From: Candidatus Omnitrophota bacterium
Lineage (GTDB): Bacteria > Omnitrophota > Gorgyraeia > Zapsychrales > JANLHA01
DNA: 60,471 nt
Reading direction: 5' to 3'
NCBI GenBank assembly: GCA_029560465.1
Contig: JAKQKX010000006.1
Location: 1-60,471 of the forward strand
Part shown: piece by piece, positions 9,623 to 15,373 of the stretch
Layout of the letters: each line of letters begins with the position of its first letter
Numbering within the stretch: position 1 is the first letter of the stretch
Translations under genes and position numbers: made by a program
Notes under the pieces: generated by a model
What the model was told of the DNA's origin: nothing
Databases searched by the model: none
The model's input: only the letters and a program-made list of their open reading frames with translations

Positions 9623-10236
9623 CCGCCATGAGTCATAAAACGTTTCGCATGGAGTTGGCCGAGCATTTTCGATGGAAATCGATCGCGCTGAATGCCCTGA
9701 TTGTCTTAGGGATTTTGACTGCCCTTTATGCCATTTTAAACGTGATCCCTGTTCACAAGTATGCCACATTCACGCACCCCCCCACAGGAATTCAGATCAA
9801 GTTCCCTAACAATTGGGGTTTCGACGACCCTAAACAGCCCGGGGCGATCATTGTTTTTACAGCGCCTCCGGAAGGCCCGCTCGATATGTTTACCGAGAAT
9901 GTCGTTTTAACGTACTGGGACCTGAACCCGGATATTAACACGTTGACAAAACTGTCTCAAAAAATGGTTCATCAGGTCACCAGGACGTTTAAAGGATATA
10001 TGGAGGTTCTGGAAAGCAAAAGAAGCCGGGTCGGGGGCCAGTTGGGGTATAAGTTTGTTTATGTCGGGAAGGTGGAGGGGGTCGATGACCCGAATAAGTT
10101 TATGCATGTCTGGACGATCATCGGCACTCGGGCCTTTATTTTAACTTACGCCGCTAAAGAAAGCACGTTTGATAAATATTTAAAACATGTCAACAAGATG
10201 ATTGACTCCTTGAGGCCCATCCCCCAGCAGAAGTGA
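9619..10236 (+). CDS. PsbP/DcrB-like membrane-anchored protein
   Basis: 205 residues. One membrane anchor (about residues 24-45) precedes an extracytoplasmic domain of PsbP/DcrB type: HPPTGIQIKFPNNW, a central VGGQLGYKFVYVG strand pair and a C-terminal helix ending in KMIDSLRPI. In these folds the domain often binds a partner protein or a small ligand; the role here is unknown. It overlaps the PaaK-like gene by an ATGA junction, so it is translationally coupled. Confidence 0.6.
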   Translation: MTAMSHKTFRMELAEHFRWKSIALNALIVLGILTALYAILNVIPVHKYATFTHPPTGIQIKFPNNWGFDDPKQPGAIIVFTAPPEGPLDMFTENVVLTYWDLNPDINTLTKLSQKMVHQVTRTFKGYMEVLESKRSRVGGQLGYKFVYVGKVEGVDDPNKFMHVWTIIGTRAFILTYAAKESTFDKYLKHVNKMIDSLRPIPQQK

Positions 10237-10470
10237 AAGAGCTTCAGTGCCAGGCGTTACCGGTTAATCCCCGTAACTGCCAATCCAACAACATCAATTT
10301 TCTTGCCGATAAAAGAAAAACAGAAACACAATTATTTAATATCTTACAACACACTTCTGGCCTTACTTTGAAATCTGTGATAGAGGGGGATTATTGTATT
10401 AAAATGGTTGTTTTCTGTAGATGTTTTGATAAGATAATAACCAAAAAACAGGTTGGGAAAGGAGGATCCC

Positions 10471-10569
10471 GTGGAAGACGATGGTGGCGGTTGTAAGGGT
10501 TTTGTTTCAAATAAATTCTGTAACCCGATTTTAGGCTCCCTGTTGGTTATTTATTCTCCTGCTGGATAA
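10471..10569 (+). CDS. Possible regulatory leader peptide of mgtE
   Basis: A 32-codon open frame starting with GTG and preceded by an excellent AAAGGAGG ribosome site (10459-10466, 5-base spacer). The product begins MEDDGGGCKG: acidic residues directly after the start are the kind known to destabilise E. coli and Salmonella ribosomes at low magnesium, as in the Salmonella mgtA leader MgtL. It lies 51 bases upstream of mgtE in a region with mutually exclusive RNA pairings (see the regulatory entry). It has no recognisable homologue and is proposed from position, ribosome site and residue content only. Confidence 0.4.
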   Translation: MEDDGGGCKGFVSNKFCNPILGSLLVIYSPAG

Positions 10570-10619
10570 TACTTCTTCCAAATCGCCTTCATCGGTTACG
10601 AAATTGATGGAGGTGTTTA
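10520..10619 (+). promoter_or_regulatory. mgtE leader: RBS-sequestering hairpin and competing helix
   Basis: CGCCTTCATC (10584-10593) can pair with GATGGAGGTG (10606-10615), a 10-bp stem with two G-T wobbles and a 12-base loop that buries the mgtE ribosome site GGAGGTG. An alternative helix pairs GTAACCCGAT (10520-10529, inside the leader reading frame) with ATCGGTTAC (10591-10599), with one bulged C. The two helices share bases 10591-10593 and the loop, so they exclude each other. Ribosomes moving through the leader would mask 10520-10529 and favour the closed form; early drop-off would favour the open form. Folding was done by eye. Confidence 0.4.
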
Positions 10620-11969
10620 ATGCCGCACAAACAGTCATTAATCTCGCCCGAGATAAAAGAAATTTTAAATTTACCGAATAAAGCTGAGAATATAAAAGAG
10701 GCTTTTTCTGACTTCCACTCAAGAGATATTTTTGTCCTTTGCGAGAGTCTGGAGCCGCAGGAAAATGCCGAGATCGTGATGGCTCTTGGACGGCCTTTGG
10801 GGATTGAATTTTTTCAAGAGTTTAAGATAAAACAACAGCGTGAGATATTCAAAAGATTTTCTAAAGAATGGATGGGGCATCTCTTGGATGAAATGGCTCC
10901 GGATGAGCGAGCGGATTTTATAAAAGCTTTGCCCAGGGAACGGGCTGATGAGTTGCTTCCGTTAGTTGCCCAGGCTGAACGTAATGACATAAAGAAACTT
11001 GTCCAGTATGAGGAAGGCACCGCCGGATCGATCCTTACTACGGAATACGCTTTTATCCCGCAAGATATTAAAGTCAAAGAGGCCATAGAAAGGCTTAAAT
11101 TGCAGGCATTTAACAAGGAGACGATTTATTATGTTTATGTCACAGATAAAGACCGGCAACTTTTGGGATTTGTTTCATTGAAAGACCTGCTTGTTGCTGG
11201 CGTAGATAGAGTTGTTAAAGAGATTATGCACACAAATATTATTAGTTCTTTGGTCACCGATGACAAAGAAGTGGTCGCTCAAAAGCTCTCCGACTACGAC
11301 CTGTTGGCTATCCCTGTCGTCGATAATGCAAATCGACTGATGGGAATAGTTACGGTTGATGACGTTCTTGATGTTATCGTTGATGAAAGCACGGAAGATA
11401 TTTATAAATACGGCGCGGCCGGTGAATATGTTGATTATATGGGGTCGCATCCGGGCGTTATCGCCAAGCAGAGAATCTTATGGCTTTTGGTTTTAGTGGT
11501 GATGGGGTTTTTTTCTGGGATGATCATGGAGAAATACGCTTTTCAGCTCGAGGCAGTTGTGGCACTTGCGTTTTTTATCCCGCTTCTTTGCGATTCGGGT
11601 GGTAATGCCGGAACCCAGTCATCGACGGTTGTTATCCGCGGGCTCGCCACAGGTGAGATAAAGATGAAAGATGTTTTTAGAATTTTAAGAAAAGAGTTGT
11701 TGGCCGGGTTAGTTGTCGGACTTGCTATGGGCGGATTGGCAGGAATTCGGGCTATTATTATGAATAAAGATCCCTTGCTTGGAGTGACGGTTGGTCTGTC
11801 GATGATTGTGACAGTCGTGGTCGCCACAACATTGGGGGCGATGCTTCCGTTGTTATTTAAAAAGATGAAGCTGGACCCGGCATTGATGTCCGGTCCTTTT
11901 ATTACGAGTATTGTTGATATTGTTTCACTTTTTGTGTATCTTAATATTGCCGTGTTGGTTTTAAAATGA
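10620..11969 (+). CDS. mgtE: MgtE magnesium transporter
   Basis: 449 residues with full MgtE order: an N-terminal helical superhelix domain, two CBS domains (about residues 130-255, including MGIVTVDDVLDVI), then a plug helix and five membrane helices. The pore-region signature CDSGGNAGTQSSTVV is intact. The protein admits Mg2+ and closes when the CBS/N domains bind Mg2+ in the cytoplasm. The ATG follows GGAGGTG by 4 bases. The upstream 383-base gap holds a probable leader peptide and an RBS-sequestering hairpin. Confidence 0.95.
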   Translation: MPHKQSLISPEIKEILNLPNKAENIKEAFSDFHSRDIFVLCESLEPQENAEIVMALGRPLGIEFFQEFKIKQQREIFKRFSKEWMGHLLDEMAPDERADFIKALPRERADELLPLVAQAERNDIKKLVQYEEGTAGSILTTEYAFIPQDIKVKEAIERLKLQAFNKETIYYVYVTDKDRQLLGFVSLKDLLVAGVDRVVKEIMHTNIISSLVTDDKEVVAQKLSDYDLLAIPVVDNANRLMGIVTVDDVLDVIVDESTEDIYKYGAAGEYVDYMGSHPGVIAKQRILWLLVLVVMGFFSGMIMEKYAFQLEAVVALAFFIPLLCDSGGNAGTQSSTVVIRGLATGEIKMKDVFRILRKELLAGLVVGLAMGGLAGIRAIIMNKDPLLGVTVGLSMIVTVVVATTLGAMLPLLFKKMKLDPALMSGPFITSIVDIVSLFVYLNIAVLVLK

Positions 11970-13231: not shown

Positions 13232-15373
13232 ATGAAATGTTTCTATACTAATAACACCGTTTTATTAAAAAAAAAGTTCATAATGACGTCCTTGAATTCA
13301 TATTTTAAAAGGGTCAATTTTATCAGGCAGTTCCCGGTTTTTAGCCAGCTCAGCTGGCTGGAACAGCATCGTATCGCGCTGTTATCGGAAGTGTGCGAGT
13401 TCCGGAAAGGCGATATTATCCGGGCCCAGGGTGAACCGCCAGACGCCCTTTATTGCCTGATCTCCGGCCGTGTCCAGGCCTTCCTTGTAGATGAGTCCGG
13501 CGGCAGAATTCACGCCGACTTTTTCCGCCGGGGGATGTATTTCGGTATCATCTCGCTTTTAACCGGCCAGCCGCATTCGCTTACTTTTGAGGCCATCAAC
13601 GACTCGGTTATCCTGAGGATTCAGAAAGACCGTTTTCATGAAGTCCTGAAAGGCATCCCGCAGCTGGGGCTGGAGTTCAGCCAGACTTTGTCCCAGCGGA
13701 TCCGGCGGAATATCCTGCACGAAGATAAATCCCGGGCGGCGGGCATGATCATTGCAGTCTACAGCCCTTTTAAGGAAGCCGGAAGTTCGACATACGCGAC
13801 GCATTTGGCGTTCGCGCTGAAACGGGAATCGGGGCGCAGTGTGATCCTTGTCAATCTCCGTTCCGCCGCGGCCGCTGAAACCCCATCCGTCCCATCTGTG
13901 AGCGCCGCGCCGCAATGGCGGCAGAGCGGCCCCTTGTTGGAGAACATCCTGAATGAGCCGGACAAACTCAAATCTTATATTGACCATCATGCCGATGCCA
14001 TTGACCTTTTGAGCGTGTGCTTTGACCCGCAGGACACGGCGTTGACTCAACAAATCAGCGCTTTTGTCACCGAGCTGGAGGGCGATTACGATTTTGTCGT
14101 GGTCGACCTGCCCAACGAGATGGACGATGTCGTGATTAAGGCCCTCAGCCAATCCGACAATATTCATTTAATCCTCAGCCTCCACCGGCAGGAAAATTTT
14201 CAATTGGCGCGGGACGTTATTTATAAAATTGAGGAAGAGCTGAAGGCGAATTTTTCTTCCCAGAAGGTGCGGGTGATGGTCAGCGGTATTCGGGGCACGG
14301 ATATCCCCTTTGAGGAGATCAATAACCGGGTTGATTATGAGATTTCCGCCAAGCTCCCTTTTATTGATGTTTCAGATTGTGAAAAGACCTTTGAAACGGC
14401 TTATTTCCGCACGTCGTTCCCGGCCGAGACATCGCCGTACGGGAGGTTCATCAAGGCTGTGGCCCGTCAGATCAGCGGGGTCCGGGTTGGGCTGGTGCTG
14501 GGCGGGGGCGCGGCGTTCGGCCTGGCCCATATAGGGGTCTTGCGCGTCCTGGAAGAGGAGCACATCCCGGTTGACATGGTGGTGGGAAGCAGCATAGGCG
14601 CGCTCATCGCCAGCCTGTGGGTCACCGGCATGAACGCGGATGCCATCGCCCAAATGGCCAGGGAATTCGGCACACAACGGGCCATGCTCAGGCTTTTTGA
14701 CCCGGTTGTCCCTAAATCAGGGTTGATGGGAGGGCGGTTGATTAAAAGCTGGCTTAAAAAGCGGCATCTTGCGGAGAAAACTTTTTATGACGCCACGATC
14801 CCCCTGAAGATTGTCGCCTATGATTTGCAGAAACGGCAGGATTTGATCCTGGACTCCGGCCTTTTGGTTGAAGCCGTCAGGAAAAGTATTTCGATCCCGG
14901 GGATTATGGAGCCGGTTCAGGAGAAGAATCAGGTTATCATCGACGGGGGAGTGCTGAACCCCCTGCCGACGAATGTCCTGCGCGAACAGGGGATCAGCAA
15001 AGTGATCGCCGTTAATGTGCTTCAATCTCCGGAAGATGTCATTCGGGCCCAGGATATCCCTCACGGACAGGCCCTGAAGCGGCGGAAACAGCTCCGTGAC
15101 AAGAAATCGGTTTTCGGATTTATAACGAGAAACATGCATTTAAACCTTAAAGAGGCTTTGAGCCCGAACATCTCGGATATCATTGTCAAAAGCCTGATGG
15201 CGTCGGAGTACATGATATCCCAGAGCAGCGCCGAACTCGCGGATGTCGTGATCCATCCGGACATGGCCGGGGCCCAGTGGTACGAGTTTTTTAAAGTCGA
15301 TCTTTTGGTCCAGCAAGGGGAAACCGCGGCGAGGGCGGTTTTGAAAGATATTAAAAATTTGTGTTCGGGATAA
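13232..15373 (+). CDS. cNMP-binding / MinD-like / patatin phospholipase fusion
   Basis: 713 residues in three parts. Residues about 35-150 form a cyclic-nucleotide-binding (CRP-type) beta-roll. Residues about 170-400 resemble a MinD/CpaE-type P-loop fold with a degenerate Walker A (SPFKEAGSST) and YDFVVVDLPNE as a Walker B-like strand. Residues about 410-610 are a patatin lipase with the oxyanion loop LGGGAAFGLAHIG, nucleophile elbow GSSIG and catalytic Asp in DGGVLNP. Phospholipase activity gated by nucleotide binding is the likely theme, as in NTE-type enzymes. The oxyanion loop has Phe where Arg/Lys is usual. Met18 (13283) is an alternative start; neither start has a clear ribosome site. 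Confidence 0.75.
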   Translation: MKCFYTNNTVLLKKKFIMTSLNSYFKRVNFIRQFPVFSQLSWLEQHRIALLSEVCEFRKGDIIRAQGEPPDALYCLISGRVQAFLVDESGGRIHADFFRRGMYFGIISLLTGQPHSLTFEAINDSVILRIQKDRFHEVLKGIPQLGLEFSQTLSQRIRRNILHEDKSRAAGMIIAVYSPFKEAGSSTYATHLAFALKRESGRSVILVNLRSAAAAETPSVPSVSAAPQWRQSGPLLENILNEPDKLKSYIDHHADAIDLLSVCFDPQDTALTQQISAFVTELEGDYDFVVVDLPNEMDDVVIKALSQSDNIHLILSLHRQENFQLARDVIYKIEEELKANFSSQKVRVMVSGIRGTDIPFEEINNRVDYEISAKLPFIDVSDCEKTFETAYFRTSFPAETSPYGRFIKAVARQISGVRVGLVLGGGAAFGLAHIGVLRVLEEEHIPVDMVVGSSIGALIASLWVTGMNADAIAQMAREFGTQRAMLRLFDPVVPKSGLMGGRLIKSWLKKRHLAEKTFYDATIPLKIVAYDLQKRQDLILDSGLLVEAVRKSISIPGIMEPVQEKNQVIIDGGVLNPLPTNVLREQGISKVIAVNVLQSPEDVIRAQDIPHGQALKRRKQLRDKKSVFGFITRNMHLNLKEALSPNISDIIVKSLMASEYMISQSSAELADVVIHPDMAGAQWYEFFKVDLLVQQGETAARAVLKDIKNLCSG

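Follow-up and report, generated by a model that had tools for sequence, protein, structure and literature searches.

A candidate acidic leader-peptide switch ahead of the magnesium transporter gene mgtE in Omnitrophota and Aminicenantes

Does a translated leader peptide control the synthesis of MgtE in a bacterium of the phylum Omnitrophota, and if so, to which signal does it respond? The question is raised by a 60,471-nucleotide stretch of DNA (the window) in which a short acidic frame precedes the gene of this Mg2+ transporter. The host genome has a size of 2.77 Mb and the leader-mgtE region is single-copy there. The mgtE gene (10620..11969, plus strand) codes for a Mg2+ transporter/channel of 449 residues, recognised by the Pfam domains MgtE (3e-39), MgtE_N and CBS, and 383 bases separate it from a PsbP-like gene ending at 10236. 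Four promoter-like sites were found upstream of mgtE, versus 1.5 +/- 1.3 expected, and the candidate promoter region (10368..10405, plus strand; TTGAAA-18-TATTGT or GTGATA-17-TAAAAT) is weak and not separable from chance. No intrinsic terminator was found in the region before mgtE. The same genome harbors a second mgtE (L002, G000:C68:175887-177221), 58% identical and devoid of leader, which lies directly 3' of a gene reading like endonuclease III. Elsewhere in the window (13232-15373), a cyclic-nucleotide-binding domain is fused to a patatin-like phospholipase domain, with an unassigned stretch in between.

Leader frame, hairpin and alternative pairing in the window

A preliminary description of this DNA had proposed a GTG frame with a strong ribosome site and an acidic start, MEDDGGG..., and this frame is indeed present at 10471..10569 (plus strand). 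It starts with the GTG at 10471, ends with a TAA at 10567-10569 and encodes a peptide of 32 residues, MEDDGGGCKGFVSNKFCNPILGSLLVIYSPAG, with acidic codons 2-4 (E2, D3 and D4) in the EDDGGG start and no proline within the first 18 residues. The leader Shine-Dalgarno (SD) sequence, AGGAGG (10460..10465, plus strand), is located 5 nt before the GTG and its anti-SD duplex amounts to -11.6 kcal/mol. Fourteen stretches of the window's genome were used as own-genome background: a uORF combining an acidic start and a strong SD was detected for two of the 167 genes having an upstream gap of at least 100, one of them being mgtE, a frequency of about 1 in 80 upstream regions.

Between the leader and mgtE, the anti-SD strand (segment 3, 10584..10597, plus strand) forms 14 perfect pairs out of 14 with the strand carrying the mgtE SD (segment 4, 10602..10615, plus strand). 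The resulting hairpin, closed by the loop ACGA, has an energy of -17.5 kcal/mol and masks the GGAGG at 10609-10613. When the preceding bases were shuffled and the SD strand was kept fixed, its stability was equalled in 2 of 1000 shuffles. On the basis of predicted accessibility, the mgtE SD of the window is the least accessible among 126 mgtE homologues and one of the four most hidden among 284 genes of the same genome. The folding energy of the whole region is ordinary (z -0.5).

The layout of the window comprises four segments, in which the pairings 1:2 and 3:4 are opposed to 2:3. Segment 1 (10478..10502, plus strand) consists of early leader bases with two alternative predicted partners, segment 2 (-15.2 kcal/mol) and the anti-SD strand itself. 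Segment 2 (10516..10537, plus strand) corresponds to the late leader codons 16-23 and can pair with segment 3. The existence of two mutually exclusive pairings, one masking the mgtE SD and the other using leader bases, had been announced from the sequence and is borne out by these foldings. The early-codon pairing (codons 3-8, -19.4 kcal/mol) is nevertheless a poor candidate for the switch, being equalled in 31 of 500 to 113 of 1000 shuffles, and was set aside in favour of the late-codon pairing (about -17 kcal/mol), which was equalled in 1 of 500.

The effect of the ribosome position was analyzed by folding. In a nascent transcript extending to 10604 and free of ribosome, the anti-SD strand lies on the early codons. 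A ribosome placed on codons 1-6 of the nascent transcript shifts the pairing of this strand to codons 12-33 (10-14 pairs), and one placed on codons 20-33 abolishes the pairing between late codons and anti-SD strand. The proposal that pairing with leader bases frees the mgtE SD is in agreement with the folding of nascent transcripts, whereas equilibrium folding keeps the SD shut at every ribosome position, and equilibrium switching in the window was rejected. Since completion of the SD strand gives the advantage to the hairpin whatever the ribosome position, an opening of the mgtE site would have to be trapped in the course of transcription.

Acidic leaders before other mgtE genes

Ten mgtE genes cluster with the window in the tree (support 80/88), and the support reaches 98/92 for nine of these. 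The acidic leader is absent in eight of the ten rows of the window's mgtE clade, including the gene that is 82% identical, and this lack of leader conservation among close relatives genuinely weakens the case for the window taken alone. The two carriers, which are not sisters, are the window and a locus (L039, contig JAGGYH010000049.1) labelled Aminicenantes, whose mgtE is 60% identical to that of the window. Its leader of 31 residues, MDDGPG... (MDDGPGSRCTRN...), extends from -143 to -47 relative to the mgtE start and nearly coincides in position with the window leader (-149 to -50). Among 127 mgtE upstream regions, only those of the window and of L039 contain, in non-coding DNA, a frame that joins an acidic start to a strong SD. 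As L039 was chosen by its leader start, its other features constitute a semi-independent test, which both the hairpin (-18.8, equalled in 5 of 1000 shuffles) and the duplex between leader and anti-SD strand (-28.2, equalled in none of 1000) withstood. The pattern GGAGG followed by an M(D/E)DG start, outside which MEDDG falls, gave short matches across 384 Omnitrophota genomes and, without recourse to their downstream genes, no mgtE leader was identified among them.

Other elements were observed near these relatives. On the minus strand of L039 (2625-2689), a fluoride riboswitch (Rfam RF01734) is oriented divergently to the leader and mgtE. In the 82%-identical relative (L005, 1380-1500), a tRNA-Ser-like sequence, just 5' of which lies a partial tRNA-like copy, stands where the leader would be, its end lying some 20 bases from mgtE. 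In a further member of the clade (L049), about 80 bases before mgtE, a T-rich run comes after the hairpin TTCGCGG...CCGCGAA, and the two perhaps make up a different attenuator.

The search was carried on in the phylum of L039 and then in the class holding it. In this phylum, mgtE genes 38-42% identical to that of the window were found which also possess acidic leaders. In the class of L039, 18 mgtE genes with distinct upstream regions carry a leader of 35 residues, which occupies -150 to -42 relative to mgtE (-149 to -41 in one case). Its consensus, with single exceptions, is MSxC(E/D)(D/G/N)(G/S/D)DPYPSx(I/L)DG, followed by a variable tail. Four Aminicenantes genomes contain a tandem mgtE pair (G661:C30:281744-284817, L217 and L240; same in G940, G608 and G653) in which the 35-codon leader and the SD hairpin are present before each copy. 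Pairwise NG86 estimates on the 18 genes, made on short segments and not tree-corrected, gave dN 0.098, dS 0.544 and dN/dS 0.18 for leader codons 2-16 versus dN 0.443, dS 0.338 and dN/dS 1.31 for codons 17-35. This contrast suggests that the start of the leader is maintained for its peptide and the tail for its RNA only. A small RNA hairpin in codons 2-9 (GUUGCUG/CGGUGAC in alignment A2, with a C-G to U-A change) may contribute partly to the conservation of the start.

In the alignment of these genes, the helix between the late leader and the anti-SD strand (2:3) is 96% paired, compared with at most about 50% when it is slid, and displays one double change (CG in 14, UA in 4 sequences) which costs a Pro-to-Leu replacement. 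The SD hairpin (3:4) is also 96% paired, one of its positions being occupied by U-A, U-G or C-G. The covariation is limited to one double change per helix in related sequences, and that of the SD hairpin does not go beyond column shuffles. In the main family, the duplex between leader and anti-SD strand was equalled in 0-1 of 200 shuffles. An acidic leader and both stems, whose conservation the preliminary description had set as a test, are strongly conserved in Aminicenantes; among the mgtE genes closest to that of the window, the leader is not. Around the leader stop codon (columns 120-135 of alignment A2), many but not all sequences form another hairpin, CGGAGC-CUGA-GCUCCG, with variants such as CAGGGC/GCCCUG.

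Further leaders share the same layout with a different sequence: MERNSREEGDPFFPG.. (L174), MEMSGREESEPFSLG.. (L232), MSDPAESDGG.. (L172), MSDPADSDGS.. (L175) and MSDSESGPG.. (L070). The leader of L215, MDSGPRCNRSPG.., resembles that of L039 by its start. The duplex with the anti-SD strand was equalled in 0-1 of 200 shuffles for L174, L232, L215 and L039, in 8 for L070 and in 15 for L175, and was no better than chance for L172 (200 shuffles). In L174 and L232, equilibrium folding leaves the SD more open as long as the ribosome has not reached about codon 21, and closes it once codons 23-33 are covered; in most relatives, the SD is predicted to be shut at equilibrium for all ribosome positions. 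The Omnitrophota and Aminicenantes leaders align poorly with each other, so that their common origin is no more than a possibility.

The frame, its geometry, the hairpin and the alternative pairing are seen in the sequence and its foldings, and acidic N-termini and stems are conserved in Aminicenantes. Given L039 and the Aminicenantes genes, the window leader is probably functional, and the window element is a probable member of an mgtE leader type which is apparently undescribed.

Proposed control of mgtE and known magnesium leaders

We propose that translation of the leader peptide controls translation of mgtE. Ribosomes reading the whole leader would cover the late codons and the anti-SD strand would close over the mgtE ribosome site. 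A failure of the ribosome in the first codons (EDDGGG in the window, E/D..DPYP in relatives) would leave the late leader bases free to capture the anti-SD strand during transcription, so that the mgtE ribosome site would emerge open. If MgtL and mgtQ are a guide, this failure would be caused by an acidic nascent chain destabilising the ribosome at low Mg2+, and Mg2+ shortage would lead to more MgtE. Leader translation, drop-off, trapping and the Mg2+ signal are here all inferred, and we regard a leader-peptide switch driven by Mg2+ and drop-off as the moderately favoured explanation of mgtE control. As to its direction, the mgtQ-like layout combined with the MgtL-like acidic start makes it most likely that full reading keeps mgtE shut and that early failure opens it.

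In Salmonella, mgtQ is a uORF of 8 codons between mgtC and mgtB which controls mgtB translation; it possesses an AGGAGG and early Asp/Glu residues, and its 3:4 hairpin hides the transporter ribosome site that the 2:3 pairing frees (PMC8092293). The short ORF, the AGGAGG, the early acidic residues, the SD-masking hairpin and the Mg2+ transporter gene coming next are all found here, and an alternative 2:3 pairing is predicted on nascent transcripts of the window and is very strong in relatives, but is not the preferred state at equilibrium. Unlike mgtQ, which lies inside an operon ahead of a P-type ATPase gene, the leaders described here have 22-45 codons (32 in the window), form the 5' leader of an MgtE-family gene, carry their switching bases inside late codons, belong to other phyla and have no sequence similarity to it. 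Furthermore, the open pairing of mgtQ is reported to be more stable (PMC8092293), whereas folding of the mgtE leaders favours the closed one.

For MgtL, the mgtA leader of E. coli and Salmonella, ribosomes drop off at EPDP when Mg2+ is low (PMC11282234, PMC11552253), and MgtL/EttA provides a precedent (PMC11282234). The likeness resides in the acidic N-terminus (also proline-rich, DPYP, in Aminicenantes), in the Mg2+ transporter gene coming next and in an early translation failure which would alter the downstream RNA fold. The peptides are however unrelated in sequence, the window start EDDGGG lacks the prolines of EPDP, and MgtL, whose drop-off is Mg2+- and L31-dependent, acts through Rho-dependent termination on the P-type ATPase gene mgtA, while the target here would be the mgtE ribosome site. 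The corL uORF also lies ahead of a Mg2+ transporter gene, corA, whose expression is lowered by efficient uORF translation (PMC11552253), but it is Rho-dependent, has few acidic residues and serves a transporter of the CorA family. The initial idea of a translational MgtL analogue outside enterobacteria is partly supported, by the acidic leaders and both stems before Aminicenantes mgtE genes; its translational action is not new, as mgtQ acts in this way on mgtB (PMC8092293).

The leader and the RNA switch could be real and respond to another signal, such as charged tRNA, the rate of release or initiation, EF-P/ABC-F factors or translational coupling. Nothing beyond a leader ORF and a switch is revealed by the anatomy, proline is missing near the start of the window leader, and the Cys4, Tyr10 and prolines also conserved in Aminicenantes leaders could serve another sensor. 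We consider such a signal unlikely: a Mg2+ transporter is encoded downstream in every case, and all lineages retain acidic residues within the first ten codons while the remaining positions drift, a pattern shared with MgtL and mgtQ.

It is also unlikely that the window frame is a chance ORF, with a hairpin acting alone (by low constitutive translation, as a thermometer or as a factor binding site) and a coincidental likeness to Aminicenantes. Such a coincidence would have to include a strong SD with an acidic start as rare as computed above, a leader position and length matching those of L039 and Aminicenantes, and a late-codon pairing at the same place as in relatives; the leaderless nearest mgtE relatives, the weak early-codon pairing and the ordinary folding energy of the region speak in its favour.

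A direct Mg2+-sensing riboswitch is very improbable: the M-box (ykoK) serves Mg2+ homeostasis, precedes mgtE in other bacteria and uses a translational platform in Mycobacterium (PMC12810186), but it is a ligand-binding RNA devoid of leader peptide, and the region before the window mgtE matched no Rfam family, nor any M-box or other Mg2+ element even at E up to 10, so that known riboswitches were rejected at the window and the absence of an M-box presupposed at the outset was confirmed.

A literature search on mgtE with ribosome destabilisation or a leader peptide found nothing relevant, and in the literature found, Mg2+ sensing via unstable translation of acidic leaders is described so far in enterobacteria only. 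We give an even chance to the view that Aminicenantes and some Omnitrophota possess a distinct family of acidic leaders in which Mg2+-sensing drop-off switches mgtE translation, as an independent counterpart of MgtL and mgtQ. The alignment of the 18 genes offers natural variants for asking which leader residues matter. If the proposed control is true, the MgtL/mgtQ principle would extend, perhaps through independent origins, to distant uncultured phyla and to a different transporter family.
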